Of a DNA stretch of 46,722 bases, positions 10,922-44,564 are shown in pieces. The notes under the pieces were generated by a model, which did no database searches, was not told the DNA's origin, and saw nothing but the letters and a program-made list of their open reading frames with translations. This stretch comes from Specibacter cremeus (GTDB lineage: Bacteria > Actinomycetota > Actinomycetes > Actinomycetales > Micrococcaceae): the NCBI RefSeq assembly GCF_003946885.1, contig NZ_RWKQ01000025.1, positions 912-47,633 on the forward strand, written 5' to 3'. Both the position numbers and the translations under genes were made by a program. Within the stretch, counting starts at the first letter, position 1, and each line of letters begins with the position of its first letter.

Positions 10922-11102
10922 TTGAGCCCGGTGATTGAGCCTGTCGAAATCACCGGAGTCTGACAGGCTCGACCACCGTTGATTGAGCCTGTCGAAATCA
11001 CTGGGTCTCGCTCCCCAGCGGCTCCCACTGCTCGCAGGCTCGCAGCGGGTCCCTCGCCGCTGTGGGCCCAGGCTCGACCAACGGCGACAGGCTCGACCAC
11101 CG
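10914..11102. repeat. Cluster of dispersed REP-like repeats between convergent genes
   Basis: Several GGTGATTGAGCC and inverted GGCTCGACCACC units between the MFS gene and the epimerase-like gene. The cluster includes a longer form with an inserted block (about 11008-11080, CTCGCTCCCCAGCGGCTCC...). That block is partly shared with 42889-42932. Confidence 0.85.
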
Positions 11103-11103
11103 C

Positions 11104-12606: not shown

Positions 12607-12672
12607 GGGACCTCCCGGGGCGCTCCCTCCCATCATGCCCCCTCCCGGCGGCCATCCTGCAAGAATGGGCCA

Positions 12673-24463: not shown

Positions 24464-26146
24464 CTACTCCGAAACCGCGGCCGCGGCCAAAGAAGGAGCG
24501 GCAACGGGGCTCGGCCCCATCGTCGCCGGGTCGGTGCGCAGGTGCAGCAGCGCCGGCAGCCCGCTGGCGAGCGCCCGCTCCAGCGCCGGGGCGAACTCCT
24601 CGGTCGAAGACACGTATTCACCGTGCCCGCCGAAGGAGCGCATCCAGGCGGCGAAGTCGGGGTTGGTCATGGCCGTGCCGGAGGGGCGGCCCGGGTAGTG
24701 GTTGCGCTGGTGCTGCACGATGGTGCCGTAGATGCCGTTGTCGACGACGAGCACCAGCGGGGTGCCGCCGTGCGCGAAGCAGACCGAGAGCTCCTGGGCG
24801 TTCATGAAGAAGTCGCCGTCGCCGCAGATCGCCACGGCCTGCCGGTCCGGGAACGTCAGCGACGCTGCGACGGCGGCCGGCACGGCCAGCCCCATGGCGC
24901 CGTTGCGCGGGCCCACCAGCGAATTCGGCTGGGTGTGCGACAGGTAGCGGTGCCCCCACAGGGTCGCGTTGCCGGCGCCGTAGGTGAGCACGCGGTCGGC
25001 CGGCAGTGCCCGCTCCAGCTCGCCGAACGCGATGCCCAGATCGACGGCGGTGCCGCGGTCGACGGCGTCCCCTCCGTCGGGCGCGGGCGTCGCGAAGCGC
25101 CGCTGGTCGGCGGCGAGGGCGTCCATCCAGGCCGGTCCGCGGGTCCCGGCGGCCGGGGAATCGGCCGCGGACCCCACGGGTAGCGCGTCGACCAGCGCGG
25201 ACGGCGTGGCGAACACGTGCCGGTCGAGCCGGCCGTCGTGCATGGTGGCGGACGTGTCGGCCAGGACCAGGATGGTCTCGGTGTCCAGGCCGCGGGTGTA
25301 GCCGTCGCTGAGCACGTCGGCCCGGCCGCAGCCGATGAACACGAGCAGGTCCGCCTCGTCGAGCCGGGCGGCGAGCGTGTCGGCGCGGCCGTAGCCGAGC
25401 CAGCCGGCCCAGGCGGGTCCGCGGTGCGGCACGGCGTCGTAGGCGCGCCAGTCGGCGGCGACGGGGACATTGGCGGAAGAAGCGAAGTCCAGCAGCCGCT
25501 CTCCGGTGTCCCCGGTCCAGCCGTCCCCACCCACCACGATGAGCGGCTTGTCGGCCAAAGCCAGGCGCTCCATCAGATGGTCCACGTCAAAAGCGGCGGG
25601 CACCAGCGAAGGCAACGGCCGCGGCGTAAGCGCGGGAGCCGCCGTCGTGCGTACCAACACATCCTCCGGCAACCCGACGACCACCGGGCCGGGGCGGCCG
25701 CTGCGCGCCAGGTGAATGGCCTCCGCGACCATTTCGGAGGCCCGGTCCGGGTCCTCGAGCACCATGACGCGCTTGGCGGTGGTGGAGAACCAGCCCTCCA
25801 GGCTGAACTCCTGGAAGGCGTCGCGGCCGCGGTCGGCGACCGGGATGAGGCCCACGAACAGGACCAGGGCGGTGGCGTCCTGCCAGGCCGTGTGGACGGC
25901 GATCATGGCGTTCGCGGCGCCGGGGCCGCGGGTCACCATGGCGATGCCGGGGGTCCCGCCCAGCCGGCCTTCGGCGAGCGCCATGTAGCCGGCGCCGCCC
26001 TCGTGCCGGCACACGACCGTCTCGATGGTGGAGTCGTGCAGGCCGTCGAGGACGTCCAGGTAGCTTTCGCCGGGGACGGCGTAGACGCGCTGGACGCCAT
26101 GGGTTTCGAGGGTTTTGACGATGAGGTGGCCGGCTGAGCGGGTCAT
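24464..26146 (-). CDS. Thiamine diphosphate-dependent enzyme (acetolactate synthase/benzoylformate decarboxylase-like)
   Basis: A 560-residue ThDP enzyme with the usual three domains. The N-terminal pyrimidine-binding domain has the activating glutamate in CRHEGGAGYMA near residue 49. A central domain follows. The C-terminal ThDP-binding motif is GDGDFFMNAQELSVCFAHGG with NGIYGTI. Likely chemistry is decarboxylation or carboligation of a 2-oxo acid. The conserved Glu argues against glyoxylate carboligase, which has Val there. The gene is 36 bp downstream of the MHS transporter and 5 bp upstream of the amidohydrolase, in an operon facing a PucR-type regulator. Annotating it as biosynthetic acetolactate synthase would not fit this catabolic context. 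Confidence 0.87.
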   Translation of the reverse strand: MTRSAGHLIVKTLETHGVQRVYAVPGESYLDVLDGLHDSTIETVVCRHEGGAGYMALAEGRLGGTPGIAMVTRGPGAANAMIAVHTAWQDATALVLFVGLIPVADRGRDAFQEFSLEGWFSTTAKRVMVLEDPDRASEMVAEAIHLARSGRPGPVVVGLPEDVLVRTTAAPALTPRPLPSLVPAAFDVDHLMERLALADKPLIVVGGDGWTGDTGERLLDFASSANVPVAADWRAYDAVPHRGPAWAGWLGYGRADTLAARLDEADLLVFIGCGRADVLSDGYTRGLDTETILVLADTSATMHDGRLDRHVFATPSALVDALPVGSAADSPAAGTRGPAWMDALAADQRRFATPAPDGGDAVDRGTAVDLGIAFGELERALPADRVLTYGAGNATLWGHRYLSHTQPNSLVGPRNGAMGLAVPAAVAASLTFPDRQAVAICGDGDFFMNAQELSVCFAHGGTPLVLVVDNGIYGTIVQHQRNHYPGRPSGTAMTNPDFAAWMRSFGGHGEYVSSTEEFAPALERALASGLPALLHLRTDPATMGPSPVAAPSLAAAAVSE

Positions 26147-26182: not shown

Positions 26183-27505
26183 TCAGTGCTTGAAGCCGGG
26201 CAGGCTGACGCTCAGGCGCGGGGCGATGACGCCGGCCACGGCCGTGAAGAGCGAGAGGAAGACCAGGATGGCGGCGGCCGGCCACCAGTGGCCGGCGGCG
26301 GAGGCGACCAGGCCGGTGGCGACCAGCGGGATGAACCCGGAGATCATGCCGGCGATGTTCTGGGCGAAGCCGACGCCGGTGTAGCGGGTGCTGGCCGGGA
26401 ACAGGCCGGTGAGCACGGTGCCGGAGGCGGCGTACGGGAAGGACAGCGCGGCGACCGCCAGGGTCATGCCGGCGATGACCAGGACGCCGTTGTGGCTGGT
26501 GATCATCAGGAAGGCCGGGACGGCGACGATGGCCGAGGCGATGCCGCCCCAGATGATGACGCGGCTGGACCCGAACCGTTCGCCGAGGCGGCCGCCGGCG
26601 ATGAGCACGGGGATCTCGACGACGGCGGCGATCATGCCGCCGAGCAGCATCAGGCCCGCGTCGTAGTGCAGGATCTTGACACCGTAATAGACGACGAACG
26701 CGGTCACCAGGTAGAACCCGCCGACGCCGAGCATGCCGGCGGCCATGCCCACGATGATCTGCTTCCAGGACTGCACCAGGGTGGTGCGGATCGGGGCCTT
26801 GGCGGTCTCGCCCTTTTCCATGAGTTCGGCGAAGACGGGGGACTCGTCGAGCCGGCTGCGGATGTACAGGGCGATGAGCAGCATGGGGATGGCGGCCAGG
26901 AACGGGATGCGCCAGCCCCAGGCGCTGAAGTTGCCGTGGGAGATGAACAACGTCATGAGGAAGAAGCCGCCGGAGGACAGGATGGTGCCGATGGGCGAGC
27001 CGATCTGGGGCAGCGCCGCATAGCGGGCGCGGCGTTCCAGTGGGGCGTTCTCCACCACAATGGTCATGGCGCCGGACCATTCACCGCCCACGAACAGGCC
27101 CTGGGCGATGCGCAGCAGCACCAGCAGGATCGGGGCGGCGATGCCGATGGCCGCGTAGGTGGGCAGCAGGCCGATCAGGCCGGTGATGGCGCCGATGCCG
27201 ACGATGGTGACCATGAGCGTCTTGCGGCGGCCGATCTTGTCGCCCATGGCGCCGAAGATCATGCCGCCGATGGGGCGGGCCACGAGGCCCACGCCGAACG
27301 TGGCGAAGGAGGCCAGCGCGGCGGCCGTGGCGTTCTCATTGGCGAAGTACTGGACGTTGAAAACCAGTGCCGCGGCGGCACTGAACAGGAAGAAGTCGTA
27401 CCACTCCATGGCGGTGCCGATCAGCGCACCGATGGCGACCTTGGTCGCCTCCTTGTCGGTGATCTGCCGGGTGGCGCCGGCTTCAAGGTTTGCTGTCTGG
27501 GTCAT
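26183..27505 (-). CDS. MHS-family (metabolite:H+ symporter) MFS transporter
   Basis: A 440-residue, 12-helix importer. ALIGTAMEWYDFFLFSAAAALVF near the N-terminus and GALIGDKIGRRKTL-like FGAMGDKIGRRKTLM are hallmarks of the MHS group, as is GLFVGGEWSGAM in helix 4. Such proteins import carboxylates, osmolytes or aromatic acids with protons. It is the first gene of the operon with the ThDP enzyme and two amidohydrolases, has a GGAGG ribosome-binding site, and is divergent from the PucR-type regulator. It probably imports the compound that this operon breaks down. Confidence 0.92.
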   Translation of the reverse strand: MTQTANLEAGATRQITDKEATKVAIGALIGTAMEWYDFFLFSAAAALVFNVQYFANENATAAALASFATFGVGLVARPIGGMIFGAMGDKIGRRKTLMVTIVGIGAITGLIGLLPTYAAIGIAAPILLVLLRIAQGLFVGGEWSGAMTIVVENAPLERRARYAALPQIGSPIGTILSSGGFFLMTLFISHGNFSAWGWRIPFLAAIPMLLIALYIRSRLDESPVFAELMEKGETAKAPIRTTLVQSWKQIIVGMAAGMLGVGGFYLVTAFVVYYGVKILHYDAGLMLLGGMIAAVVEIPVLIAGGRLGERFGSSRVIIWGGIASAIVAVPAFLMITSHNGVLVIAGMTLAVAALSFPYAASGTVLTGLFPASTRYTGVGFAQNIAGMISGFIPLVATGLVASAAGHWWPAAAILVFLSLFTAVAGVIAPRLSVSLPGFKH

Positions 27506-27616
27506 TGCTGGCCTCCGGGGGTTGCGCTGCGGTGCGCGTGCTGGTGATTACCTTCAAGGGTGCCAGCGTTCGCTGTGATCTGGCCGCACGATTCGGAACG
27601 AGTTGTGCATCACACT

Positions 27617-27643
27617 TTGTGCAAAAGCACATATCATGGGGCA
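27617..27643 (+). promoter_or_regulatory. Promoter and inverted repeat for the PucR-type regulator
   Basis: TGTGC-AAAA-GCACA (27618-27631) is a perfect 5-bp inverted repeat next to a TATCAT hexamer at 27632-27637, which lies 6 nt before the ATG at 27644. The arrangement suggests a leaderless transcript and a regulator site overlapping the promoter in the region shared with the divergent MHS operon. Confidence 0.45.
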
Positions 27644-28822
27644 ATGACGCTTGATGAGCCTGTTTCCGGCGGCCAAAATGTTACGAATGCCGATTCTTCC
27701 GGGTGGCGTTCCTTGCTGGCGCAGCTGTCCGTTGACGCGCTGACGGAGGATTTCATCGCCCGGGTGATGACGATCCCGGAGTACGCGAAGGCGCCGCTGC
27801 CGGTCAGCGAGATCCGCCGCACGGGCGCGTCCTCCTTTGCGGCGCTGATCGCGGCGCTGGGCCGGGACGACGACACGGCGCAGGACTGGGCGGACCGGGA
27901 GTCGATCGCCACGGACGTGGGCGTCTCCCGGGCCCGGGCGGGGGTGCCGATCGAGTCGTTGATGACGGCGATCCGGCTGGACTTCTCGGTGCTGTGGCAG
28001 GCGTTGACGGCGATCGCCACGGAGGCCGATGCGGCCGTGCTGGTGGCGCACACGGCGCGGATGTGGCAGGTGGTGGACAGCTACGCGGGGCAGACGCAGG
28101 CCGCGTACGTGGTGGAGCAGCAGCGCATGCACGACGAGGCGTTCAGCGTCCGGCAGGGCCTGGTGGCGTCGCTGTTCGGCGATCCGTCCGAGGCGATGCT
28201 GGCGCAGGTCGCCGCGGCGCTGAGGGTGGCTTTGGATGCTTCGTTCGCCGTGGCGGTGGCCGTGGGCGAGGAGGTGCCGAAGCTGCGCGTGGCGCTGGCC
28301 GCCGCACGCGCCGGCGACGCGGTGTTCACGCATCACCTGGGCGACGCGCTGGTGGCGTTCTGGGTTTCTGATTCGCGCCCGGGGTCCGTCGGTTTGCGGA
28401 TTGCCGAGCGCGTTGGCGTGTTGCGCTGCGGTTTGGCGGGTCCGACGCCGGAACTCGCCTCCCTGCGCGCGTCCGCCCGGTTCGCGCGTTCGTTGGCCGG
28501 GCTGTTGCAGCCCGGTGAGGAGGGGCCGATGACGTGGGCGCGCGGCTGGGCCCGGATGGCGCGGCTGCGGCTGGACGAGTCGGGGGCGTCGGTGATCGCG
28601 CCGGTGGACGCTGCGCTTGCCTCGTGTGGCACGGCGGAGCGGCAGCGCCTGGTCGAGGCGGTACGCAGTTATCTGGAGACCGGCAGCGTTTCTTTGTCCG
28701 CCGAGCAGTTGTTCTGCCACCGGAACACGCTCATGAACCGGTTGCGGCGCTTCGCCGAGGTGACGGGTATCGACGTGTCGGTGCCCCGGGAGGCCGCGCA
28801 GCTCGTGGTGGGGTGGGCATAA
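27644..28822 (+). CDS. PucR-family-like transcriptional regulator with C-terminal HTH
   Basis: About 392 residues. The C-terminal segment LFCHRNTLMNRLRRFAEVTGID (about 355-377) is the HTH_30/PucR helix-turn-helix, which resembles the CdaR/PucR group. The middle part shows a GGDEF-like regulatory region of the kind found in PucR proteins (LRVALDASFAVAVAVGEEV). These regulators usually activate purine, ureide or amino acid catabolism in response to a small ligand. ATG 27644 is chosen because TATCAT lies six bases upstream, and an upstream in-frame ATG at 27560 would run into the divergent promoter region. It very likely controls the divergent operon 27505-21540. A repeat cluster starts one base after its stop. 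Confidence 0.82.
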   Translation: MTLDEPVSGGQNVTNADSSGWRSLLAQLSVDALTEDFIARVMTIPEYAKAPLPVSEIRRTGASSFAALIAALGRDDDTAQDWADRESIATDVGVSRARAGVPIESLMTAIRLDFSVLWQALTAIATEADAAVLVAHTARMWQVVDSYAGQTQAAYVVEQQRMHDEAFSVRQGLVASLFGDPSEAMLAQVAAALRVALDASFAVAVAVGEEVPKLRVALAAARAGDAVFTHHLGDALVAFWVSDSRPGSVGLRIAERVGVLRCGLAGPTPELASLRASARFARSLAGLLQPGEEGPMTWARGWARMARLRLDESGASVIAPVDAALASCGTAERQRLVEAVRSYLETGSVSLSAEQLFCHRNTLMNRLRRFAEVTGIDVSVPREAAQLVVGWA

Positions 28823-33139: not shown

Positions 33140-34039
33140 CTACTCCGACCCGGGGGTTCCCATCGTCTGGAGGCAGGCGTCCCGGACCTTGGCGACGAGC
33201 AGCGAATCGGACATGTCCTTGCTGTAGATCAAGCTGACGCGGGATATGGCATTGACGTCGTCGATCTTCAGGTACGCCAGGCCGGGGATGGCGAACGCTC
33301 GCAAGGACGCCGGCACAACGGCGATGCCGAGGTGGGCCGCCACCAGCCCGAGGATGGTGGGGAACTGGACGGCGTGTTGGACTATGTTGAAGTCGACGTC
33401 GACGGCGTGGAACAGTGCGGAGATGTGGTCGAAAAGCCGTGAAATCCGGTCCCGGGGGAATGCGATGAACTTTTCCCCCCGGAGCTCTGCAAGTCCCACC
33501 GATGTACGGGACGCCAGGTGGTGGTCCGCGGCGACGGCCACGATGAGGCGCTCGTTTTGCAGCAGCGTCGTATCGACCCCGGGGGCGTCTTGGACTTCCC
33601 GGGCGATTCCTGCATCCAGGGCTCCGGCCATGATGAGGTCAATTTGTGCGTCCGTGGTTTCTTCTCGCAGTTCGAGCTCGATTCCGGGCCACTGCGAACG
33701 GAGATGTCGGACCACCGGCGGCACGGCGGAGATGGCGGCCGAGGAGACGAAGCCAAGCCGGAGCCGGCCGATTTCGCCGTTGCGCGCCTGTCGCAGCGCC
33801 GCCGTCATGGCGCTGTATTGGCTCAGTACCTTTCTGGCGTGTTTCAGAAGCAACTCGCCCTCGCTGGTGAGCTGAACATTGCGCGAGTTGCGGACAAACA
33901 GTTGGACCTTGTATTCCTCTTCGAGCTTGCGGATCTGCTGGCTCAGCGGCGGCTGGGCCATGTGCAGGCGCTCCGCGGCCCGGTTGAAGTGCAGTTCCTC
34001 CGCGACGGCAACGAAGAGTTCCAGACGTCTCAGGCTCAT
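33140..34039 (-). CDS. LysR-family transcriptional regulator
   Basis: About 299 residues. The N-terminal HTH reads LRRLELFVAVAEELHFNRAAERLHMAQPPLSQQIRKLEEE, a standard LysR domain. The effector domain follows (GRLRLGFVSSAA, FIAFPRD, GIAVVPASL). Start ATG 34039 is chosen because LysR proteins begin just before LRRLELF; an in-frame GTG at 34069 would add ten residues. TAGTCT lies 7 nt upstream. It is divergent from the aldehyde dehydrogenase operon (34158-40846) across a 118-bp region and is its likely activator, responding to the substrate or an intermediate. Confidence 0.92.
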   Translation of the reverse strand: MSLRRLELFVAVAEELHFNRAAERLHMAQPPLSQQIRKLEEEYKVQLFVRNSRNVQLTSEGELLLKHARKVLSQYSAMTAALRQARNGEIGRLRLGFVSSAAISAVPPVVRHLRSQWPGIELELREETTDAQIDLIMAGALDAGIAREVQDAPGVDTTLLQNERLIVAVAADHHLASRTSVGLAELRGEKFIAFPRDRISRLFDHISALFHAVDVDFNIVQHAVQFPTILGLVAAHLGIAVVPASLRAFAIPGLAYLKIDDVNAISRVSLIYSKDMSDSLLVAKVRDACLQTMGTPGSE

Positions 34040-34157
34040 GGAACCAAGACTAGTTGAATATTGGTCCACGCGAAATAGATACTTCAGTGCGGGGTTTCCG
34101 GGGTCTACCGTTGGTTGTGAGGAAAGTCATAGATCGGCACGGAACAGAGGATAGGCA
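34040..34157. promoter_or_regulatory. Divergent control region of the LysR gene and the six-gene operon
   Basis: It is AT-richer than its surroundings at about 34045-34085 (ACTAGTTGAATATTGG). A LysR protein would be expected to bind here, but no clear T-N11-A palindrome stands out. The operon's first ATG (34158) has AGAGGA upstream. Confidence 0.45.
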
Positions 34158-35618
34158 ATGCCCGTATTGACCAAGCCCGCCAGCAGTTTCATCAACGGCA
34201 CCTGGGTTGAGGGGTCCGGAGCGGCCGTGTCCCGCTGCAACCCGGCCGCACCGGAGGAGACGGTCACCAGCTACCGCCAAGCCGGTTCAGCGGAGCTGGA
34301 GCAGGCGATCCGGTCGGCTGCCGCCGCGGCCAGGGCGTGGGACGATCTGGGCATTCTGGCCCGGGGCCGGATCCTGTCCGCCGCCGCGGCACGGATCCGC
34401 GAACGAGCCGAAGAGATCGCCGCGGTCATGACGGCCGAACACGGCAAAACCATGGCGGAGTCCCGGATGGAAGTTGACGCCTCCGCCGATACGTTCGACT
34501 ACCATGGCGGGTCGGCCCGGAATCCCGTGGGTACCGAATACCCGTCCAGTCATCCCGACGAACGGATCCTCACAGTCCGCAGGCCGTTGGGCATCGTCGG
34601 CGTGATCACCCCCTGGAACTTCCCGCTGCAGATCCCGGCCTGGAAAATCGCACCGGCACTCCTGCATGGCAACACGGTGGTGTGGAAATCAGCCAGCCAC
34701 ACGCCCGGGGTCTCCGTCCTGCTCATGGACATCCTGGCCGCGGCCGGTGTTCCGGCCGGCGTCGTGAACCTGCTCCTGGGCCCGGGCCCGCTGGGCTCCG
34801 AGCTGGTTTCCCATCCGATGGTGGCCGGCGTGACGTTCACCGGATCGGTTCCTGTCGGCCACCACATCCGGAGCATTGTTTGCGGCCGCGGAGCCAAATT
34901 GCAGCTCGAACTCGGCGGCCACAACGCAACGCTCGTCCTTGCCGACGCCGACGTCGAACTGGCCGCCAGCAGCGTCGTCAGCGCCGCGATGGGCTCCACG
35001 GGCCAGAAGTGCACCGCCACGCGGCGTATCATCCTGGTCGGAGATGGGCACGAGGCGTTCCTGTCGAGGGTGAAGGACAAGGTCTCGGCCCTGGTTCTGG
35101 GACCCGGCACGGATCCGGCGGTCCAGATCGGCCCCGTTGTCTCGGCTTCGGCGCGAGATGAAATCATCGCAGCAATCAGCCAGTCGTTGGCCGAAGGCGG
35201 CGAAATCCTGGCCCAGGCCGCGACACCAGCCGGCGACGGATACTACGTCCCTCCCACCCTGCTGACCGGGCCGCAGTCCATGTCCATCTGCCAGGAGGAG
35301 GTTTTCGGCCCCGTCGCCACCGTCCTGCATGCGGCCACCCTGGATGAGGCGATCGCGCTGGCAAACAATACGGCCTTTGGACTCACCGCCGCCGTTTTCA
35401 CCAGCGATGAGCGCGCCGCCCGCCGGTGCGTCACCTATCTGGAGGCGGGCCTGGTCAAAGTCAACGCCCCCTCCACGGGGTCCGAACTGCACGCACCCTT
35501 CGGCGGCATGAAGGATTCAACGTTTGCCGGTCCCCGGGAGCAGAACAGCGCCGTCGCCGCGGCGTTCTTCACGCACGAAAAGACCGCCTACCTGCGCCTG
35601 GCCCCCGAGAAGGCATGA
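34158..35618 (+). CDS. Aldehyde dehydrogenase (semialdehyde dehydrogenase-like)
   Basis: A 486-residue NAD(P)-dependent aldehyde dehydrogenase. Motifs include TPWNFPLQIPAWKIAPAL, the general base Glu in LELGGHNA (about 252) and the catalytic Cys285 in GSTGQKCTATRR. EEVFGPV follows, and the C-terminus has HAPFGGMKDSTFAGPREQN. The GQKCTATRR and PREQ...FFT..KTAY pattern is reminiscent of 2-oxoglutarate semialdehyde dehydrogenases, so a dicarboxylic semialdehyde product is plausible but unproven. It is the first gene of a tightly packed operon; its stop overlaps an ATG of the next frame (ATGA). Confidence 0.9.
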   Translation: MPVLTKPASSFINGTWVEGSGAAVSRCNPAAPEETVTSYRQAGSAELEQAIRSAAAAARAWDDLGILARGRILSAAAARIRERAEEIAAVMTAEHGKTMAESRMEVDASADTFDYHGGSARNPVGTEYPSSHPDERILTVRRPLGIVGVITPWNFPLQIPAWKIAPALLHGNTVVWKSASHTPGVSVLLMDILAAAGVPAGVVNLLLGPGPLGSELVSHPMVAGVTFTGSVPVGHHIRSIVCGRGAKLQLELGGHNATLVLADADVELAASSVVSAAMGSTGQKCTATRRIILVGDGHEAFLSRVKDKVSALVLGPGTDPAVQIGPVVSASARDEIIAAISQSLAEGGEILAQAATPAGDGYYVPPTLLTGPQSMSICQEEVFGPVATVLHAATLDEAIALANNTAFGLTAAVFTSDERAARRCVTYLEAGLVKVNAPSTGSELHAPFGGMKDSTFAGPREQNSAVAAAFFTHEKTAYLRLAPEKA

Positions 35619-35620
35619 TC

Positions 35621-37339
35621 ATGACTCTTCAGGACGAACAAACCATGTGTGAACTCCGGTCCCCCGAGGAAGTGCTCTCCGGGACCGACATGAACGGCGC
35701 CTGGGGCACCCGCCACAGTTTTGCACGCACGATGCTCCGCCGGGCAGCCGCACATCGTTGGACCGTTGCCAGGACACGCCTGGATCTCGATGCGCAGGGC
35801 CGGGGCACCGCCGTGTACACCGTTAACGCCGAGGGCCGCGAACTGAACTTCATCGCCTTCTGCCGGACTCTGGAGGAAAGCGAACGCACCGACCGGGTCA
35901 TCGCAAACGCCTGGGACATCACCGCCGCCCTCGTGGACGGCGAACTCACCCCGGAGCGCGAAGCTGACCTTCGCCGTAACGTCCCGGTCCAGGAGCGCGG
36001 CCGCGTGGATCCGGAAACGATCATCATGACCCGGGCCAACCGCAGCGCACGCTTTTTCGACTATGTCAGCGACTGCCTGTCCACGGGATCCCAGCCCGAC
36101 GTCGGTAAGATCGGACCCAGCCCTTACCTGATTCGCAGCACCGCGTTCTACGGCAACGGCAAATTCGGGCTCAAGGAACTCGCCAACATCCCGGCAGGTC
36201 ATCCGCTGTCCGTCCCCTACCGTTCCCAGATGCTCGCGGCCTGGCTGCTGCGCGAACTCAGCATGGACATGGTTGAGCACGTCGCCCGGGCCAAAGCCGC
36301 GGCAGCCGGTACCATCGCCGTACCCCTGGACGGGGGCTGGGGCAGATACTTCGGTTTGGGCAACGCCACCGGCCTGGGGATGGTCCCCTTTGTCATCAAT
36401 CACCCCGACTATCTCGACGCCTGGTGCCGGCTCCGGGAGATTCCCCTCGCCGCAGGGCTCACCCCCCGCTACGCACCCGACCACCCGGACCTGGGCCGCG
36501 TCGCTGAACTCCTTGTCAAGGCAGACCGGCATCTGGCAGAAAAGAACGGGCTCAAGACAGTCCCGTTCCTGCCGACGGAACTGATCAGGCCCCAACTTCA
36601 GCAGCTGCTGGGAGAGCTCCAGTCCTTCATGGTCTCCGGGCAGGAGCCTGCTCCCGTGCTGGCGCGGATGCATGAACGAGCGGCCGGTCTCAGCCCGGAA
36701 GTTCGCGGCATCTTTGCCTCCATCGTCATCGAGCTCCGAGCCGACTTCGATGAAGAGGCTGAGGCCCTGCTCACCATGACGGACTCCACACCGTTCGACC
36801 CCGCCATGCGCTGCCATGAACTGCAGCACCTTTTGGACCAGAACTACGGCTGGGCCCGAAGCTATGACTTCGCCGTGCCGGAGCGCGCCAGCTACTACTG
36901 GTACTCGTCCGCGGCCAACGAAGAACCCCGGCGGGCACTGCGAACAGATCGGGCCGCCGGCACGGTTGAGCACTGCACCGACGTAGCACGCCGAATCAAC
37001 GCCCTCGCCGTCGATTTGGAACGGTTCCCGTCACACCTCAGCGTGGCTGATTTCCTCCTTGCCCACCCTGACCACCGGTTTGCCGCCGGGCGGATCCAAC
37101 AGACCCAGCCCCTCTTTTACGGTGAAGTTCGGGACAACCTCCTCGACGCCGAGTTCCTGCCCCTGAGCACCCAGCGCTTCCAGCTGGCCACTTACGGCAT
37201 GAACAACTTCAGCCCCCAATCAACGGACTGGGTTCGGGTCACCCTGTTCAGCGGTGCACCACGCGTCGCAGACATCAACCACGGAACCGACGACGACGAC
37301 TGGCTGTTCCCCGTGGCACCGGAAGGGTCGGAGCAATGA
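35621..37339 (+). CDS. Conserved-looking protein of unknown function, 572 aa
   Basis: I do not recognise this family. The protein is soluble in appearance, with no signal peptide or membrane segment. It has aromatic- and Gly-rich patches that look like enzyme core: RSTAFYGNGKFGLKEL, PLDGGWGRYFGLGNATGLGMVPF and PAMRCHELQHLLDQNYGW. ATG 35621 is chosen because GAGAAGG lies seven bases upstream; ATG 35615 overlaps the upstream stop. Its end overlaps the M19 gene by four bases (ATGA). Its place between an aldehyde dehydrogenase and a dipeptidase-like protein in a LysR-controlled operon suggests a catalytic step that produces or uses an amine- or amide-containing intermediate. It could be the signature enzyme of the pathway. 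Confidence 0.8.
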   Translation: MTLQDEQTMCELRSPEEVLSGTDMNGAWGTRHSFARTMLRRAAAHRWTVARTRLDLDAQGRGTAVYTVNAEGRELNFIAFCRTLEESERTDRVIANAWDITAALVDGELTPEREADLRRNVPVQERGRVDPETIIMTRANRSARFFDYVSDCLSTGSQPDVGKIGPSPYLIRSTAFYGNGKFGLKELANIPAGHPLSVPYRSQMLAAWLLRELSMDMVEHVARAKAAAAGTIAVPLDGGWGRYFGLGNATGLGMVPFVINHPDYLDAWCRLREIPLAAGLTPRYAPDHPDLGRVAELLVKADRHLAEKNGLKTVPFLPTELIRPQLQQLLGELQSFMVSGQEPAPVLARMHERAAGLSPEVRGIFASIVIELRADFDEEAEALLTMTDSTPFDPAMRCHELQHLLDQNYGWARSYDFAVPERASYYWYSSAANEEPRRALRTDRAAGTVEHCTDVARRINALAVDLERFPSHLSVADFLLAHPDHRFAAGRIQQTQPLFYGEVRDNLLDAEFLPLSTQRFQLATYGMNNFSPQSTDWVRVTLFSGAPRVADINHGTDDDDWLFPVAPEGSEQ

Positions 37340-38328
37340 GCTTGCACCAGCACGCAACCATCGTCGACGGGCTCCAGATCAGCAATTGGAGCCGGCCGGT
37401 CCTGGAGGAACTGCGCACGGGGGGTGTCAGCGCCGTCAACGCCACCTGTGCCGTCTGGGAAAACGCCAACGACACGATACGGTCCATCGGCCAATGGCTT
37501 GAACTGGCCAACCGCAATCCGGACCTGGTGTTCCTCGCCACCCATGGCTCCGACATCGAAGTCGCCAAGCGGCAAAACAAGATCGCGGTCTTTCTCGGAT
37601 TCCAGAACGGCAGTCCCTTTGAAGACGACTACCGGTATGTGGAAGTCTTCCACCGCCTCGGCGTACGCATAGCGCAACTGACCTACAACAACCAGAACCT
37701 CATCGGCGGCGGATGCTTCGAATCCACGGATGCCGGGCTGACCCGGTACGGCCGGGTGGTGGTGGAAGAAATGAACCGGGTAGGGATGCTCATTGACCTC
37801 TCCCACGTCGGCTACCGGACGAGTCGCGACGCCATCGAGGCCTCGTCCGTGCCCGTAGCGATCACCCACTCCAATCCGCTCTGGTTCTTCGACACCCCCA
37901 GGAACAAACCCCACGACGTGATCCAACCGCTCGTGGACCGCGGTGGCGTCATCGGATGCTGCCTCTACCCCACCGTCAGCGGCGGCGAACATGTCACCGT
38001 CGACGGCTTCTGCACCATGGTCTCGCGCATGGTGGATCAGTACGGGCCGGCACACATCGGCATCGGCAGCGACTGCACCCGCGGTTGGGGTCAGGAATTC
38101 GTCGGCTGGCTCCGCAATGGCCGCTGGCAACCCACCGACGCCCAAAATTCGCCGACTTGGCCCACCTGGCCGAACTGGTTCACCGGGCCCCAGGATTTTC
38201 CCCGGCTCACCGACGGGCTCGTCGCCGCGGGCCTCAATGATGACAGCGTCGTCGCCGTCCTGGGCGGAAACTGGAGCCGCCTGTTCGCCGAGGTCATGGA
38301 CAACACGAAGGAGCTCGCTCATGTCTGA
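37336..38328 (+). CDS. M19 (renal dipeptidase-like) family protein with atypical metal site
   Basis: A 330-residue TIM-barrel amidohydrolase of the M19 type. The second-site histidines are present: His157 (IDLSHVG) and His178 (AITHSNP), followed by RNKPHDV and HIGIGSDCTRGWG. The usual N-terminal DGHND metal motif reads DGLQIS here (Asp11 kept, His and Asp ligands missing). The bridging Glu, usually in an EG(G) segment, appears as Gln90 in GFQNGSP. A binuclear zinc site as in renal dipeptidase is therefore unlikely. It overlaps the genes on both sides (ATGA before, 8 bp after). The role may be hydrolysis of an unusual amide or a different reaction on the same scaffold. Confidence 0.85.
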   Translation: MSLHQHATIVDGLQISNWSRPVLEELRTGGVSAVNATCAVWENANDTIRSIGQWLELANRNPDLVFLATHGSDIEVAKRQNKIAVFLGFQNGSPFEDDYRYVEVFHRLGVRIAQLTYNNQNLIGGGCFESTDAGLTRYGRVVVEEMNRVGMLIDLSHVGYRTSRDAIEASSVPVAITHSNPLWFFDTPRNKPHDVIQPLVDRGGVIGCCLYPTVSGGEHVTVDGFCTMVSRMVDQYGPAHIGIGSDCTRGWGQEFVGWLRNGRWQPTDAQNSPTWPTWPNWFTGPQDFPRLTDGLVAAGLNDDSVVAVLGGNWSRLFAEVMDNTKELAHV

Positions 38329-39040
38329 CACCATCACCGTGCTCGACGACGCCCACAGCGTCCGAAGCGCCGCCCTCACATCCGTCCAGCCACGGGAAAT
38401 CACGGAGTCGGCCTTTCGGGCCCTCTCCGCCGCGGGGGCAGACCCTGCCGAGGCCCAGGAGGGTGCCCTGGCCGTGCTGCGCGCCGAAGCCGACACGCAG
38501 GACGGACTCGCCCTCCTGGAGCAGCTACTCGATGCGGACTGGGCACAGCCGATGCACCGCGCCAGTGCCAAGTCCACGTCATGGGCCGGCGTCACTGTCC
38601 GCGAGGTCTGCTGCCCGGGGCAACCGGGGCTGAGGACAGCGCTCCAGCTGATGGACCTGGCTGCCGACGGACCGGCCGCCGAAGTGCGAGTTGCGCGCAC
38701 CACGGCCCCGGGCATCCCGCGCAAGCTTTGGAACGACCTACTCCTCCGTCGAACAGCCAGCCTGCAACGCATCATCGCAATCACCACGACCAACGGCACC
38801 GAATACCTGACCGTTCGGAACGGTGCTGTCTGCTCCACCAATGAAATACCCTCCGAAGCCATCGCCGCGTTGCTGCTCCCACGGGCAACCGGGCCCGAAA
38901 CAGTCGTGATCGTCGTTCCGGGGACCACCGGGCTGGCTCCGCAAGACATCCGCATCCCTGCGAAACCCCTGAAAGTGCGTGAAGACGAATGGCGTCGGAT
39001 GTATCAGTTGTCCCGGAAGTACCTGGCGACGGACCAATGA
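38321..39040 (+). CDS. Protein of unknown function, 239 aa
   Basis: Not recognised. It starts at an ATG with AAGGAG eight bases upstream and overlaps the M19 gene. The N-terminal part (ITESAFRALSAAGADPAEAQEGALAVLRAEA) is helical and weakly recalls the helical N-terminus of YiaK/LDH2-type dehydrogenases, but there is no matching core. The C-terminal half has predicted beta strands (ASLQRIIAITTTNGTEYLTV). There are no membrane segments. Its stop overlaps the ridA start (ATGA). The tight coupling suggests a subunit or accessory protein for the M19 protein or the 572-aa protein. Confidence 0.75.
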   Translation: MSDTITVLDDAHSVRSAALTSVQPREITESAFRALSAAGADPAEAQEGALAVLRAEADTQDGLALLEQLLDADWAQPMHRASAKSTSWAGVTVREVCCPGQPGLRTALQLMDLAADGPAAEVRVARTTAPGIPRKLWNDLLLRRTASLQRIIAITTTNGTEYLTVRNGAVCSTNEIPSEAIAALLLPRATGPETVVIVVPGTTGLAPQDIRIPAKPLKVREDEWRRMYQLSRKYLATDQ

Positions 39041-39417
39041 GCACCATCGTCCGCACCCAGTTCTCCGACGGCAACCCCCGCCCCTACTCGGCCTCGGCCG
39101 CCATGAACGGCCTGGTTTTCCTCTGTGGCCAGGTTCCCACCCGCCCCGACGGCTCGTGCCCTGCGGACATTGCAGGCCAAGTCGCGCAGGCCTTCGACAA
39201 TCTGGAGCAGGCCCTGGTGGCCGCGCAATCAGATTTGTCCAGCCTCCTCAAACTCACGGTCTACCTCGCGGACCTGGACGAGTTTGAGGACTACAACGCC
39301 GCTTACCTCACCCGGCTCAGCGGCCGCCCCCTGCCTCCCCGGACCACCGTGCAGGTTGCACGCTTCCGGGGCGAGAAACGCATCGAGATCGATGCCGTCG
39401 CAGCCGTAACAGCGTAA
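39037..39417 (+). CDS. RidA-family (YjgF/YER057c/UK114) protein
   Basis: A 126-residue RidA-fold protein, FLCGQVPTRPDG near 28-39, VAQAFDNLEQAL and the active-site Arg102 in PPRTTVQVA, with Glu117 in RIEIDAVA. With Arg and Glu present it should deaminate reactive enamines/imines to 2-oxo acids and ammonia. In catabolic operons such proteins often act on a pathway-specific imine. The start overlaps the stop of the 239-aa gene (ATGA), and the MFS gene follows after 67 bp. Confidence 0.9.
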   Translation: MSTIVRTQFSDGNPRPYSASAAMNGLVFLCGQVPTRPDGSCPADIAGQVAQAFDNLEQALVAAQSDLSSLLKLTVYLADLDEFEDYNAAYLTRLSGRPLPPRTTVQVARFRGEKRIEIDAVAAVTA

Positions 39418-39484
39418 CCGGACAACGGTCACGGATCTGTTGGGTTACCACCGTCGTTTTCCCCTTGTTCAGATCGGAACCATC

Positions 39485-40846
39485 ATGCTCTCCCAGGCAC
39501 CCGCCCCCGCCTCCCAAGTGACAATCGATTCAGCCCCGCTTAACTCGTTCCACAAACGCCTGACCCTCTTCAGTTCCGGTGGCCCCTTCCTTGATGGCTA
39601 CATCCTGGCGATCATTGGCATCGCACTGGTCCAGATCATTCCCAGCTGGAAGATGAATGACTGGTGGACCGGACTCATTGGTGCATCCGCGCTGATCGGC
39701 GTCTTCCTGGGCGGCCTGATTTTCGGAAACATCACCGACAAAATCGGCCGCAAACTGATGTACACCATCGATCTGGTCGCGATCATCGTCCTCTCGGTCG
39801 CCCAGTTCTTTGTCAACGAGCCCTGGCAGCTGTTCGTCCTGCGGCTGCTCATCGGCGTCGCCGTCGGGGCCGACTACCCGATCGCCACCGCCCTGGTCGC
39901 CGAATTCGTCCCCGCGAACTGGCGGGCCCGCCTCCTGGGCGGCCTGAACGCCATGTGGTTCGTCGGGGCCACCGTCGCGGCCTTCGTTGGATACTGGCTG
40001 CTTTCCCTCGAGGACGGATGGCGCTGGATGCTGCTGTCCTCGGCAGTGCCGGCCGTACTGATCCTCATTGCCCGCGCCACCATCCCGGAATCCCCGCACT
40101 GGCTCGTCGGCAAGGGACGCCATCAGGAGGCCCTGGAAATCCTGCGCAAAACCATCGGCGAGGGAGCCACACTCGACGGGATCACCGCACATGACCCCAA
40201 CGCAGGCCAACTGAGCACCAAGAAAGCCTTCAGGCTGGTCCTGACCGGCGGATATTTGCACCGGGTCGTCTTCATCTCCATCTTCTGGACCTGCACCATC
40301 GTGACCTTGTTCTCCATCTACGCCTTCGGACCCCAGATACTGGCCCTTTTCAACCTCCAATCCGGCGCGGAAGCCAATATCGGCTATGGCCTGATCAACC
40401 TGTTCTTCCTCGTTGGCAACATCGTTGCCCTCCTGGTCGTGGACAAGCTCGGCCGCCGTCCGGTCCTCATTTGGGGATTCGTCCTCTCCGGCGTGGGGCT
40501 CATGTTCCTGGCCGTCTTCCCGAACGCACCCCTGGCCTTGATCGCCCTCGCGTTCGCCTTCTACGCCATCTTCAATGGCGGGCCCTCCATCCTGGAATGG
40601 ATTTACCCCAACGAGCTGTTCCCCACGACGGTTCGTGCCACCGCGGTGGGCCTGTGCACCGGAACCAGCCGCATCGGCGCCGCCATCGGTACCTTCGCGA
40701 CGCCCCTGGCACTGACCCACCTGGGACTCTCGGGGACCATGTGGATCGCCGCCGGCATCGCACTGGTCGGGGCCGGCGCAAGCTACTTCATGGCCCCCGA
40801 AACCAAGGGTCAAAAACTCGAAGAAGCTGCCTCACTCCACGCCTAG
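39485..40846 (+). CDS. MFS transporter (sugar-porter-like importer)
   Basis: A 453-residue, 12-helix transporter of the metabolite importer type. Motifs include DGYILAIIGIAL in helix 1, GNITDKIGRKLMYTID (loop 2-3), RLLIGVAVGADYPIATALVAEF in helix 4, PESPHWLV after helix 6, DKLGRRPVL in the second half, and PETKG at the end. ATG 39485 is the best start (an in-frame ATG at 39440 lies closer to ridA and has no clear ribosome-binding site). It is the last gene of the LysR-controlled operon and probably imports its substrate. A 58-bp perfect palindrome follows the stop after 13 bases. Confidence 0.9.
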   Translation: MLSQAPAPASQVTIDSAPLNSFHKRLTLFSSGGPFLDGYILAIIGIALVQIIPSWKMNDWWTGLIGASALIGVFLGGLIFGNITDKIGRKLMYTIDLVAIIVLSVAQFFVNEPWQLFVLRLLIGVAVGADYPIATALVAEFVPANWRARLLGGLNAMWFVGATVAAFVGYWLLSLEDGWRWMLLSSAVPAVLILIARATIPESPHWLVGKGRHQEALEILRKTIGEGATLDGITAHDPNAGQLSTKKAFRLVLTGGYLHRVVFISIFWTCTIVTLFSIYAFGPQILALFNLQSGAEANIGYGLINLFFLVGNIVALLVVDKLGRRPVLIWGFVLSGVGLMFLAVFPNAPLALIALAFAFYAIFNGGPSILEWIYPNELFPTTVRATAVGLCTGTSRIGAAIGTFATPLALTHLGLSGTMWIAAGIALVGAGASYFMAPETKGQKLEEAASLHA

Positions 40847-40859: not shown

Positions 40860-40917
40860 CCGACGTGGCGTGGGTGGGGTGGCCTCCCGGGAGGCCACCC
40901 CACCCACGCCACGTCGG
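40860..40917. terminator. 58-bp perfect palindrome after the LysR-controlled operon
   Basis: Arms 40860-40888 and 40889-40917 are perfectly complementary over 29 bp with no spacer, centred on CCCGGG. It lies 13 bp after the MFS stop, which fits a terminator for the operon. The remaining bases to 41098 hold no recognisable gene, apart from the 35-bp repeat at 41055. Confidence 0.75.
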
Positions 40918-41054: not shown

Positions 41055-41089
41055 GTACGACGGCGGAACTCACCTCGCGCGCGACTGCC
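41055..41089. repeat. 35-bp direct repeat, copy B
   Basis: It matches 31400-31434 at 31 of 35 positions and is also followed by a REP-like cluster. Confidence 0.7.
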
Positions 41090-42326
41090 CGCCGCCCCCG
41101 GGTGATTGAGCTTGTCGAAATCCAGCCCGTCGAGCCCCGGTGATTGAGCTTGTCGAAATCACCGTCAGATCCGCACCACCATCTTCCCCGTGTTGTCCCC
41201 GTGCATCATGGACAAGAACGCATCCACGGCATGCTCGATCCCGTCCACCACGGTCTCGTCGTAGGCGATCTTGCCCTCGGCGATCGCCCCACACAAGGCG
41301 ACGCGGCCGCCGTCGTTCATCACCGACAACGCGGCCTGCAGGTGGTCCCCGCCGACTGGCACCTGTTCGCGGTTCACGGTGCGTCGGCCCGACGATCCTT
41401 TGCGTCGCCATCTGTCTGAAGCCGCCCCGGAACGTCGTCTTTGAGGTATCCCGGGCGGAATCGCGGTACTCCCCGACCAGACGACGGTATCGACGCTCGT
41501 CACCGATGTCCGGTCCGGCGCAAACAACCAGCTCAATGGAGTCGAAACCCGAAGCGCCCGGGCTGTTGAAAAAATCGACGGCATTCCGGTTGCAGATGCT
41601 GTATCTCCCGTCCGCGTCGTAGATCGATGCGATGGCCTCGCGGGGCGTGAACCGGCCACCACCGTTGGCGACCCCGTTGATTGCAGCAACACGTCCGTCC
41701 GCCCAACGGGTGTAGACGTGGTCCATCGCCGTAGCACGGTCCACTTCGACGTCCAGCAGGGTGACGTCGCCGTAGTCATGGGCCTCAAGCAGTTGAAGAT
41801 AGCGCGCGGGGAGTCCAGTCCATGAAAGCGTCCCTTCGATCACGACATTCTCGCGCGCCTCCAGGCAGCGTTCGATCAAACGATCTGCCAGGAAGACGCT
41901 CTCGTTGTGCACCAAAGTTGACAGTTCGTTGATCATGAGGGGGTGCCCATCCACAAGCGTCCGTGACAACACAGACGCGAAGATGCCATCTCTAGTGGCC
42001 GCGTCCAGCAACGTCACCTTTATCGCGTCTGCATCGATTACCCGCCACCCCGGCCCATCGAGACTCAGGTTCTGTACAAACGTCGACTTCCCGGCGCCGG
42101 GCGGTCCGGCGGTCACGACCACGGCCGCCAATCCACCGGTTTCCACATTGCCGGCACCCTCTGCCAGGATTTCGTCCAGGAGTCGACGCTGAAAACGAAG
42201 CCGGTCAAGGCTAACGGGTTTCTGGGGGTCGAACGTGGCCAGCGCGGAGTACCGGTGCAATTCCGCCCCGGGCGCGGTCAGTTGGTCCAGTTCCGCGGCC
42301 ACCTGCCGAAGGACCGGGTTGTCCAT
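41070..42326 (-). CDS. Zeta-toxin-like kinase with a chimeric C-terminus
   Basis: The open frame is 418 residues. Residues 1 to about 320 form a zeta-type P-loop kinase: GPPGAGKST at 74-82, then VIDADAIKVTLLD and NVVIEGTLSWTG. Zeta toxins phosphorylate UDP-N-acetyl sugars or related targets. Upstream of 41353 the sequence looks native. From there on the frame runs antisense-style through the duplicated oxidoreductase fragment in a wrong frame (RRGPPAGRVVGDERR), then through REP-like repeats to TGA at 41070. The natural stop has been lost. ATG 42326 directly follows the antitoxin stop (TAGATG). The native part may still be active, or the tail may destabilise it. Confidence 0.75.
   Translation of the reverse strand: MDNPVLRQVAAELDQLTAPGAELHRYSALATFDPQKPVSLDRLRFQRRLLDEILAEGAGNVETGGLAAVVVTAGPPGAGKSTFVQNLSLDGPGWRVIDADAIKVTLLDAATRDGIFASVLSRTLVDGHPLMINELSTLVHNESVFLADRLIERCLEARENVVIEGTLSWTGLPARYLQLLEAHDYGDVTLLDVEVDRATAMDHVYTRWADGRVAAINGVANGGGRFTPREAIASIYDADGRYSICNRNAVDFFNSPGASGFDSIELVVCAGPDIGDERRYRRLVGEYRDSARDTSKTTFRGGFRQMATQRIVGPTHREPRTGASRRGPPAGRVVGDERRRPRRLVWGDRRGQDRLRRDRGGRDRACRGCVLVHDARGQHGEDGGADLTVISTSSITGARRAGFRQAQSPGGGGQSRAR
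41099..41164. repeat. Cluster of dispersed REP-like repeats
   Basis: Two GGTGATTGAGCTTGTCGAAA units and a short CAGCCCGTCGAG link. The cluster ends at the base before the stop codon of the oxidoreductase fragment (41165), just as the cluster 44811-44934 ends at the stop of the intact gene. Confidence 0.85.
41165..41353 (-). pseudogene. Fragment duplicating the 3' end of the NADP-dependent oxidoreductase gene
   Basis: This 189-bp stretch is nearly identical to 44935-45267 but lacks 144 bp (48 codons, in frame), joining GAIA directly to EGKIAYDETVVDG. A GCCCTCGG/CCCGG microhomology is at the junction. It encodes only the C-terminal end (SVMNDGGRVALCGAIA, AFLSMMHGDNTGKMVVRI), with no start. It is read through in another frame by the zeta-type gene. 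Confidence 0.88.
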
Positions 42327-43083: not shown

Positions 43084-43989
43084 TCAGAGGGGTGGGATCC
43101 AGGCCTTCCGCTCGCACGACCACACGAAGCCGTCTGCACTGCCGCCGAGCACGGGATCGGCAAATACGATGCACCGGTCGATCAGTTCTTGGAATCGCTC
43201 CGGTGTCGCCATTTCGAGCCGTTGCTTGCGTCGCCACGTCATCCACTTGGACTGCGCATGCTCGGCCATGCCGCTGAGGACGACTGCAAGTGGACCCGTG
43301 GGGACGCGACGAAATGCGGCAACCTTCTCAATGGCCACTGCGACGTCCTCCTGCCTCACGCTTCGCGCGTCAGTGATGGCGACAATGTCTACAAAGTCGC
43401 GCCAACGCGTGTTCTGATCGCCCCGGTCGATGGCCGTGACGATCTTCTCAGCCAACACCATATGGTCGGGATAGCCTCGTATTCGCAAGGTGCCGCCGAG
43501 GAGCAGCGGTAGCTCGGTGTCGACGGCCGCGGGCCAGATCGGGTCGCCGAAGTTCACGTCAACATGCAGGGCGATTCGGGCAGTAGCCAAAGCTGGCGTC
43601 AGCTTGACTCGCACGCCGGAGTATGCGTCTTCGTCACGGGTCACGGCCCCGGAGACCGAGTCGGGGTCGAAAATGAGGCCGTCCCCGTGGTCGAGCGCAG
43701 CGAAGGCCTTCACCCGCCGTACGACATCCTCGACATCATGGGGGAACCCGGATGCTGCGAGGTCGATATCCCTGGTTGGTCGGCGCCCGGCGAACGCGGC
43801 CATCAGGACACCACCCTTGAGGACGAAGTCCGCCGAGTCGTCCGAGTCAGCGAGCCGGGCGAGGAAACCTTCAAGCGCATACAGCGTGATGTAATCGACG
43901 GGATCGCGACCGTCGCGCTTGGCAAGGTTGCGCAAGTCGTTGTACGCCCGCCCGGCCAGCGTCTCGTGGGTGGGTCCAGACGGGGTTAC
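43084..43989 (-). CDS. AbiEii-type nucleotidyltransferase toxin, canonical start codon lost
   Basis: About 300 residues of a type IV toxin: FVLKGGVLMAAFAGRRPTRDIDLAA carries the nucleotidyltransferase Gly-Gly and DxD motifs. RIRGYPDHMVLAEKIVTAIDRGDQNTRWRDFVDI follows, typical of AbiEii. The natural start, judged from the conserved N-terminus TPSGPTHETLAGRAYNDL and the overlap with the antitoxin, is at 43989-43987, but that codon is GTA. The antitoxin stop there is TAA. A single G-to-A change would turn an ancestral GTGA overlap into GTAA. Other possible starts are ATG 44091 (inside the antitoxin) or an internal TTG. Expression may therefore be reduced or absent. Confidence 0.75.
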   Translation of the reverse strand, partial: VTPSGPTHETLAGRAYNDLRNLAKRDGRDPVDYITLYALEGFLARLADSDDSADFVLKGGVLMAAFAGRRPTRDIDLAASGFPHDVEDVVRRVKAFAALDHGDGLIFDPDSVSGAVTRDEDAYSGVRVKLTPALATARIALHVDVNFGDPIWPAAVDTELPLLLGGTLRIRGYPDHMVLAEKIVTAIDRGDQNTRWRDFVDIVAITDARSVRQEDVAVAIEKVAAFRRVPTGPLAVVLSGMAEHAQSKWMTWRRKQRLEMATPERFQELIDRCIVFADPVLGGSADGFVWSCERKAWIPPL

Positions 43990-44564
43990 AGCAGCACCTC
44001 CAAAGCGTGGCGGAGCCGTGGGAGCGCCTTGGGGAATGAAGCTGCGACTTGCAATAACGACGACGGCGAGTTCCCCCTCTGTGCAACCCATCGGCGCAGG
44101 GCGGTGTGTGCCACGTCGCTGCCCTCTAGATGCATGAGGCGGAAGCAGTCGACAATGGTCCGCTCGGCCGAATAGACCGCTAGCTCCAGATCCGGCCCGG
44201 CAGCCATCGGCGTTCGCCCCACCTCGAAGGTCGCCTCGTCGAAGCTGTGCCAGGCGACATGCTCGAACCCAGCAGGGTGGCGAGTACCACGCGGCAGAGC
44301 AATGTCAGCACCGAATGGAATGGCGTCACTGAGGTCATGGTAGACCAGCGCGCTGGTCAGGCACATGGTCGCCGCAGGTTGCATGGCGGTGGCCGCGGCC
44401 AACGATGTAGTGGTGGGATCGATCATCCCAGGCTGAACGTATACGCCACGCCCCACACGCTCAATCTCGCCGGAGGCGACCATGCGGTAGACCCGATCCT
44501 TTCGCAGGCCGAGCGCGCGGGCGTCTTCGAGCGTGAAGACTGCAGTAGCTGCCAACGCAGTCAC
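43986..44564 (-). CDS. AbiEi-type antitoxin (type IV toxin-antitoxin)
   Basis: About 192 residues. The N-terminal winged HTH reads VFTLEDARALGLRKDRVYRMVASGEIERVGRGVYVQPG, the standard AbiEi DNA-binding domain. The C-terminal domain (LYSAERTIVDCFRL-like VYSAERTIVDCFRLMHLEG) is the conserved antitoxin part. The GTG at 44564 has TTAGGAG nine bases upstream. An 11-bp inverted repeat at 44574-44616 covers the ribosome-binding site and promoter, which fits the known negative autoregulation of AbiEi. The gene is intact, while its toxin partner has lost its start codon. Confidence 0.85.
   Translation of the reverse strand: MTALAATAVFTLEDARALGLRKDRVYRMVASGEIERVGRGVYVQPGMIDPTTTSLAAATAMQPAATMCLTSALVYHDLSDAIPFGADIALPRGTRHPAGFEHVAWHSFDEATFEVGRTPMAAGPDLELAVYSAERTIVDCFRLMHLEGSDVAHTALRRWVAQRGNSPSSLLQVAASFPKALPRLRHALEVLL

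Follow-up and report, generated by a model that had tools for sequence, protein, structure and literature searches.

The operon and its genes

The window analysed here is a stretch of 46,722 nucleotides (nt) from Specibacter cremeus (Actinomycetota; Micrococcaceae), taken from contig NZ_RWKQ01000025.1 of RefSeq assembly GCF_003946885.1. It contains a LysR-controlled operon with genes for an aldehyde dehydrogenase (ALDH), a protein of 572 amino acids (aa), an M19-like protein, a 239-aa protein, a RidA-family protein and an importer of the major facilitator superfamily (MFS). We lean, guardedly, towards the view that this operon serves the uptake and breakdown of an N-methylated, betaine-type ring compound, homarine (N-methylpicolinate) being the most likely one, by the scheme set out below. 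That it serves to degrade betaine-type N-methyl heterocycles as a general class is a view we hold with more confidence.

The genes and overlaps described in a first-pass annotation of the window, made from the letters and open reading frames (ORFs) alone, are present when checked against both (Table 1), as are the single LysR gene facing the operon and, at its end, the MFS importer and 58-nt palindrome. That annotation had counted six genes with overlapping stop and start codons. The overlaps exist, but the coupled genes, with stops and starts that overlap or touch, number five (ALDH, 572-aa, M19-like, 239-aa and RidA); a short gap separates RidA from the MFS gene. The LysR gene faces the ALDH gene divergently. 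An alternative in-frame ATG for the 572-aa gene, at 35615, would overlap the ALDH stop.

Table 1. Features of the operon, with positions numbered from the first letter of the window
Feature	Position	Strand	Remarks
LysR-family regulator	33140-34069	-	309 aa from GTG 34069; later in-frame ATG 34039 possible
Divergent intergenic region, possible LysR site	34070-34157	.	88 bp; alignment of 11 loci
ALDH, 486 aa	34158-35618	+	Pfam Aldedh 6.4e-142
572-aa protein, no family	ATG 35621 to 37339	+	proposed catalytic subunit of a ring-opening enzyme
M19-like protein, 330 aa	37336-38328	+	Pfam Peptidase_M19 4.4e-71; proposed N-formyl hydrolase
239-aa protein, shrunken Ldh_2 fold, DUF3726 counterpart	38321-39040	+	proposed partner subunit of the 572-aa protein
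RidA-family imine/enamine deaminase, 126 aa	39037-39417	+	Pfam Ribonuc_L-PSP 1.7e-24
MFS importer	ATG 39485 (or TTG 39440) to 40846	+	Pfam Sugar_tr 7.6e-68
Perfect palindrome, probable transcript end	40860-40917	.	29-nt arms

The LysR protein matches Pfam HTH_1 (2.4e-24) and LysR_substrate (1.1e-42); its best NCBIfam models are AlsR, PRK09986, HcaR and BenM, every one under its cut-off. For the ALDH, NCBIfam gives 2,5-dioxovalerate (alpha-ketoglutaric semialdehyde) dehydrogenases as the best models, at 442 bits vs a cut-off of 770; for the MFS protein it gives the aromatic acid/H+ symport family (188 bits vs 419). RidA scores 79.7 bits with TIGR00004, below the cut-off of 106, and conserves an Arg, aligned to that of TdcF, which we take to be catalytic.

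Conservation and spread

A contig scan of genomes found 10 loci in which the 572-aa protein is 72-82% identical to that of the window, and all 10 have LysR, ALDH, 572-aa, M19-like, 239-aa, RidA and MFS genes in the window's order. In two of them (L020:8542-11720 and L021:4888-8069) both the ALDH gene and the 572-aa gene are broken across two frames, by decay or by sequencing errors. These loci are close kin and so carry little weight taken alone; far relatives are more telling, and the core of the cluster occurs also in other Actinomycetota and in Proteobacteria. The neighbourhood survey that the first-pass annotation had proposed as a check thus came out in favour of a conserved unit. Distribution of the 572-aa gene is patchy. 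It is present in 8 of 98 relatives searched and in 5 of 396 genomes drawn from the phylum (E 1e-10), the organism's own genome included in both counts. Of 72,556 plasmid records, 168 contain a homologue, in every case with less than 60% identity; Sinorhizobium accounts for 64 of the 168 and Phaeobacter for 58. Scans of viral contigs and phages found no relative.

Neighbourhoods were examined at 12 plasmid loci (L022-L025, L035-L042; L023, which has no annotation, was read from its ORFs) and in seven actinobacterial stretches (L026-L028, L046-L049). This brings the loci tabulated, window included, to 30: 26 of the LysR/ALDH kind and four others (L026, L035, L040 and L041). One of the 26, L048, is placed there by tree position, because its contig starts too near to show LysR or ALDH. 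In a tree of 18 proteins of the 572-aa type, 14 form one clade (support 96/97) with an actinobacterial branch (5) and a proteobacterial branch (9). A second copy from the organism's own genome (L026) groups with Sinorhizobium meliloti L035 and Aminobacter L040 in another clade (100/99), and the branch leading to L041 is very long.

Members of that other clade belong to a cluster kind that lacks ALDH (L026:6652-10937, on contig C12 of the same genome; L035:9223-13390; L040:8196-12364). It comprises an IclR regulator (annotated in L035 and L040, identified by eye in L026), a 572-aa homologue, its partner, an M19 protein and a transporter, and points to another substrate.

The 572-aa and 239-aa proteins

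Neither protein has a Pfam or NCBIfam match with E up to 1, and to this extent the first-pass description of two proteins without a recognised family stands; the 239-aa protein does, however, resemble enzymes of the Ldh_2 family (type-2 malate/lactate dehydrogenases) in fold. In annotated proteobacterial clusters, the gene directly after the 572-aa homologue encodes a DUF3726 protein (PF12525; 6.8e-12 in L022, 1.5e-10 in L023 and 5.1e-31 in L024). On a Mesorhizobium plasmid, 572-aa homologue and DUF3726 make up one 814-aa protein (L038:8947-11391), with DUF3726 at residues 596-660. Because of this fusion, the 572-aa and 239-aa proteins probably form one enzyme, in keeping with the earlier suggestion that the two carry out the distinctive step of the pathway.

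The window's own 239-aa protein has no PF12525 match (E up to 1), and tblastn with it found no match in plasmids, so its kinship to the DUF3726 partners rests on position, profile and fold. Profiles were evaluated on 23 partner proteins, among them 6 of the 11 window-type ones. A profile built without these six recovers all six, at 1.4e-14 to 3e-18, and the other seven partner groups, each held out in turn, are recovered at <=7.9e-7; the best of 1,509 decoys across nine profile runs scores 0.0077. Applied to the Ldh proteins of related clusters, the same profiles reach 4.9e-8 to 1.8e-6 at best, with the Ldh of L022 (1.1 to 45) and L025 (0.006 to 10) at decoy level. Two partners match Pfam Ldh_2 below cut-off (L046, 1.9e-7; L026, 6.9e-5), and hhalign with small alignments gave probabilities of 0.1 to 50%, a hint at most. 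PF12525 was silent in the window's genome and in all 14 control genomes, which makes that scan uninformative. DUF3726 is mentioned in none of the papers of the literature collection searched.

The structure prediction that the first-pass annotation had called for succeeded for one protein of the pair. An AlphaFold2 (AF2) model of the 239-aa protein, from 11 rows, has a mean predicted local distance difference test score (pLDDT) of 81 and a predicted template-modelling score (pTM) of 0.81, and its Foldseek matches at ranks 1-26 are all Ldh_2-type enzymes. The best is 1vbi (E 6.3e-6), and delta1-piperideine-2-carboxylate reductase 1wtj is among them. The structures superpose loosely (TM-scores of 0.41-0.55 by query length; root-mean-square deviation 8-18 A). 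Unlike Ldh_2 enzymes, the 239-aa protein is shorter, by some 100 residues, and lacks the GTNP motif, which we take, together with SHG, to be the cofactor and active-site motifs of that family. GTNP is found in none of the 23 partners vs 7 of 7 Ldh proteins of related clusters, and SHG in one partner (L041) vs 6 of 7; the window's protein has neither. From model and profiles, the 239-aa/DUF3726 family looks like a shrunken Ldh_2 protein that works with the 572-aa protein. Its missing motifs suggest that it is probably without redox activity, and not a dehydrogenase.

For the 572-aa protein, AF2 from nine close rows gave pLDDT 44 and pTM 0.32, that is, no usable fold, and profile searches of the PDB with 10 and 18 rows found no credible relative (best E 0.98). 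Across 18 aligned rows, 28-72% identical to the window's protein, 32 columns are invariant; they include nine Arg and no His or Cys, which argues against a classical metal or haem site. Such a composition may indicate that the protein binds carboxylates or a phosphate-bearing cofactor.

The M19-like protein

The Pfam match to peptidase family M19 (renal dipeptidase) spans nearly the whole M19-like protein. We assume the metal ligands of M19 to be an HxD motif, a bridging Glu, two His and an Asp. In all 10 aligned members the N-terminal HxD is absent and Gln90 replaces the bridging Glu, whereas H157, H178 and D246 are kept. By comparison with an active M19 dipeptidase, then, three of these presumed ligands are missing in 10 of 10 members, and the earlier statement that the protein has lost its canonical metal ligands is right for HxD and Glu, and wrong for the two His and the Asp. 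The change from Glu to Gln and the two retained His are visible in the alignment with PDB 3id7; the closest PDB chain, 2i5g ('amidohydrolase'), aligns with the same loss of ligands. In favour of a route for peptides or amides, with the M19-like protein as a functional dipeptidase, is the Pfam match (4.4e-71). Such a route is highly improbable in view of the missing HxD and bridging Glu and of the transporters, among which a recognised peptide transporter appears in none of the 26 clusters of the LysR/ALDH kind.

Transporters and the alternation of RidA with Ldh

Those 26 clusters differ in their transporters. BCCT transporters occur in 10 (L023, L024, L027, L028, L036, L037, L039, L042, L047 and L049), glycine-betaine ABC-like transporters in three (L022, L025 and L048, the last by a 24% match of the binding protein only), MFS proteins in 12 (the window, its 10 close kin and L046, whose MFS is 48% identical to the window's) and a branched-chain-type ABC transporter in one (L038). 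In three of the nine proteobacterial clusters (L022, L024 and L036), sarcosine-oxidase-like genes and an AraC-type regulator adjoin LysR; L022 also has purU and folD downstream. The betaine transporters, and the operon beside distant relatives that resembles those for sarcosine oxidase or N-methylglutamate dehydrogenase (Mgd), point to N-methylated betaines as substrates. Beside two clusters, L036 of Phaeobacter and L037 of Pseudomonas, a gene for the alpha subunit of a ring-hydroxylating oxygenase (L036:16740-17894 (-); L037:779-1969 (-)) adjoins an ALDH gene, perhaps another betaine-degrading operon.

RidA is present in 16 of the 26 clusters (the window, its 10 kin, L023, L027, L028, L037 and L039) and Ldh in seven (L022, L024, L025, L036, L038, L042 and L048); no cluster has both. 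Imines are hydrolysed by RidA, and some members of the Ldh family reduce them. The alternation would be explained if a single imine could go either way, to hydrolysis by RidA or to reduction by Ldh.

The ALDH allows a different reading, a route of the sugar-acid or hydroxyproline type in which the ALDH acts as a 2,5-dioxovalerate dehydrogenase on a substrate that the pair of family-less proteins makes from an unmethylated precursor. The best NCBIfam models of the ALDH and the sugar-porter type match of the MFS protein speak for it. We consider it improbable, because the ALDH is far under its cut-off, the distant clusters carry betaine transporters, and the operon has no further gene typical of such routes.

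Relation to known pathways

Ruegeria pomeroyi takes up homarine quickly (PMC12817926), and a conserved homarine catabolic pathway was published in 2026 (Nat Microbiol 11:1531-1546, as cited in PMC13390433). According to PMC13390433, mgdABCD of R. pomeroyi is neighbour to tmaR, a regulator gene of the AraC type, and Mgd takes part in the breakdown of homarine. The sarcosine-oxidase-like genes and AraC-type regulator of L022, L024 and L036 have the layout that this paper describes for mgdABCD-tmaR; in the roseobacter clusters among these, L024 and L036, they lie beside LysR and five genes for enzymes. The pathway had at first been called apparently undescribed; with relatives whose context points to N-methylated betaines, and a homarine pathway in print according to the citing text, that claim finds no support in the form in which it was put. 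The papers found by our search on homarine give no gene list in the parts available.

The window's operon differs from the roseobacter clusters in having RidA for Ldh and MFS for BCCT, and no sarcosine-oxidase/Mgd-like genes adjoin it. It is most likely an actinobacterial, RidA-using variant of a betaine degradation cluster of the homarine type. The 2026 study reportedly describes homABCDER, an operon whose products are N-methylglutamate and glutamate; its five enzymes and one regulator would match the gene set of the roseobacter clusters in number, which we do not count as a test. Trigonelline, an N-methylpyridinium carboxylate, is degraded in Acinetobacter baylyi (tgn genes) by ring opening, an ALDH and a deformylating hydrolase. 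The scheme proposed below resembles this route in logic; the window's operon has neither the flavin monooxygenase nor the hydrolase of the tgn route.

A proposed pathway

In the scheme that we favour for homarine, the MFS protein would import the betaine, and the enzyme formed by the 572-aa and 239-aa proteins would open the ring. The ALDH would oxidise the resulting semialdehyde, the M19-like hydrolase would take off the carbon left on the nitrogen (an N-formyl group), and RidA would hydrolyse 2-(methylimino)glutarate to 2-oxoglutarate and methylamine. Many proteobacterial clusters would treat the same imine differently: an enzyme of the Ldh family would reduce it to N-methylglutamate, which would then be demethylated by Mgd. 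The genes and their conserved company, the L038 fusion, the Ldh_2-like fold of the 239-aa protein, the RidA-or-Ldh pattern and the relatives' betaine-type transporters are observed; the substrate, the order of the steps and the chemistry of every step, above all that of the 572-aa protein, we infer. The wider first-pass proposal, that LysR controls a catabolic operon whose substrate is an unusual nitrogen compound and that RidA and ALDH act as just described, is supported.

Several observations weigh against homarine degradation by this scheme. The operon has no oxygenase; its 572-aa protein has neither a usable predicted fold nor a recognisable cofactor site; and scores of the succinate-semialdehyde and 2,5-dioxovalerate dehydrogenase models are all under their cut-offs. 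Ten of the conserved loci are closely related. Six of the nine proteobacterial clusters have no sarcosine-oxidase-like neighbours, and the NCBIfam soxA and soxB models cannot separate Mgd from sarcosine oxidase. By tblastn, neither RidA nor Ldh was found in L046, L047 and L049; these may be misses, because the same search missed an annotated RidA beside LysR in L039. The comparison with the published homarine pathway was made at the level of the citing paper's description. The window's protein, finally, lies in an actinobacterial branch apart from the marine one, so its substrate could differ.

This last point leads to an alternative that keeps the logic and changes the substrate to another betaine-type or N-methylated cyclic compound (e.g. 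trigonelline, stachydrine or N-methylproline, pipecolate betaine, or picolinate), one that may not be the same in the actinobacterial and proteobacterial branches. Besides that separate branch, the existence of the second, ALDH-less cluster kind speaks for it, and the transporters indicate just a betaine-like or aromatic-acid-like compound. The sarcosine-oxidase/Mgd-like neighbours of three of the nine proteobacterial clusters and the alternation of Ldh with RidA, on the other hand, fit an end point at N-methylglutamate or 2-oxoglutarate, which homarine suits better than a five-membered ring would. We regard another substrate as rather unlikely, though to be taken seriously.

More tentatively than homarine degradation itself, we suggest that the 572-aa protein makes up, with its partner of shrunken Ldh_2 fold, a new kind of enzyme, one that might open a ring of the N-methylpyridinium type although no oxygenase, flavin or metal site can be recognised in it. 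With the same reserve, and jointly with that suggestion, we would see in the partner a dehydrogenase fold turned subunit, and in the clusters a wider set of pathways, with ALDH and ALDH-less branches, for unusual betaines of soil and sea. If the homarine reading is right, betaines of this type, best known as marine osmolytes, are food for soil actinobacteria as well, by a shortened route whose end products, formed by RidA, are 2-oxoglutarate and methylamine and not N-methylglutamate. DUF3726 would gain a fold and a partner, a family-less protein would be tied to a pathway, and a metal-depleted lineage of M19 would gain a role.

Associated enzymes in relatives and in the genome

After the MFS gene, 4 of the 10 close relatives (L013, L015, L018 and L021) have genes for a thiamine diphosphate (ThDP) enzyme and a second ALDH. 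These genes are fragmented in L018 and partly so in L021; L017 has fragments of the ThDP gene only. The second ALDH of L015, the only one scanned, has succinate-semialdehyde dehydrogenase as its best model (547 bits vs a cut-off of 646). A 2-oxoglutarate decarboxylase and a succinate-semialdehyde dehydrogenase would suit a pathway ending in 2-oxoglutarate, a correspondence that is suggestive only. The window has a ThDP gene of its own (24464-26146 (-)), 47% identical to that of L015. We considered it as part of the operon and rejected it, since it adjoins genes for an amidohydrolase, an M20 peptidase and an MFS protein.

The genome has three copper amine oxidases, which might use methylamine, and, away from the operon, one SoxB-like protein (51%). 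No Ldh was found in the genome, with a single query whose empty answer carries the same caution as the PF12525 scan.

Control region and palindrome

The divergent region between LysR and ALDH contains, in 11 aligned loci, the consensus TATTGA-N6-TCAAATA, from which the window departs at some positions; it is a possible, putative LysR site. The palindrome at the end of the operon has perfect arms at 40860-40888 and 40889-40917. A search of the 4.3-Mb genome that permitted up to two mismatches found its 22-bp core once, and the 91 nt around it fold 6.8 standard deviations below shuffled sequences. No run of T follows the palindrome, so 'terminator' is an inference.

Other genes in the window

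The window's ThDP gene belongs to a group with 22809-24458 (-), 21540-22787 (-) and 26183-27505 (-), whose other members are Amidohydro_3, M20 peptidase and MFS proteins; a gene with a PucR-type helix-turn-helix lies nearby at 27560-28822 (+). Downstream of the operon are genes for a Zeta-toxin/AAA-like protein (41070-42326 (-)) and an AbiEii-type nucleotidyltransferase (43084-44091 (-)). The window also carries a bacterial Hen1 and Pnkp RNA-repair pair (11062-14100 (+) and 14097-16643 (+)), both above their NCBIfam cut-offs.

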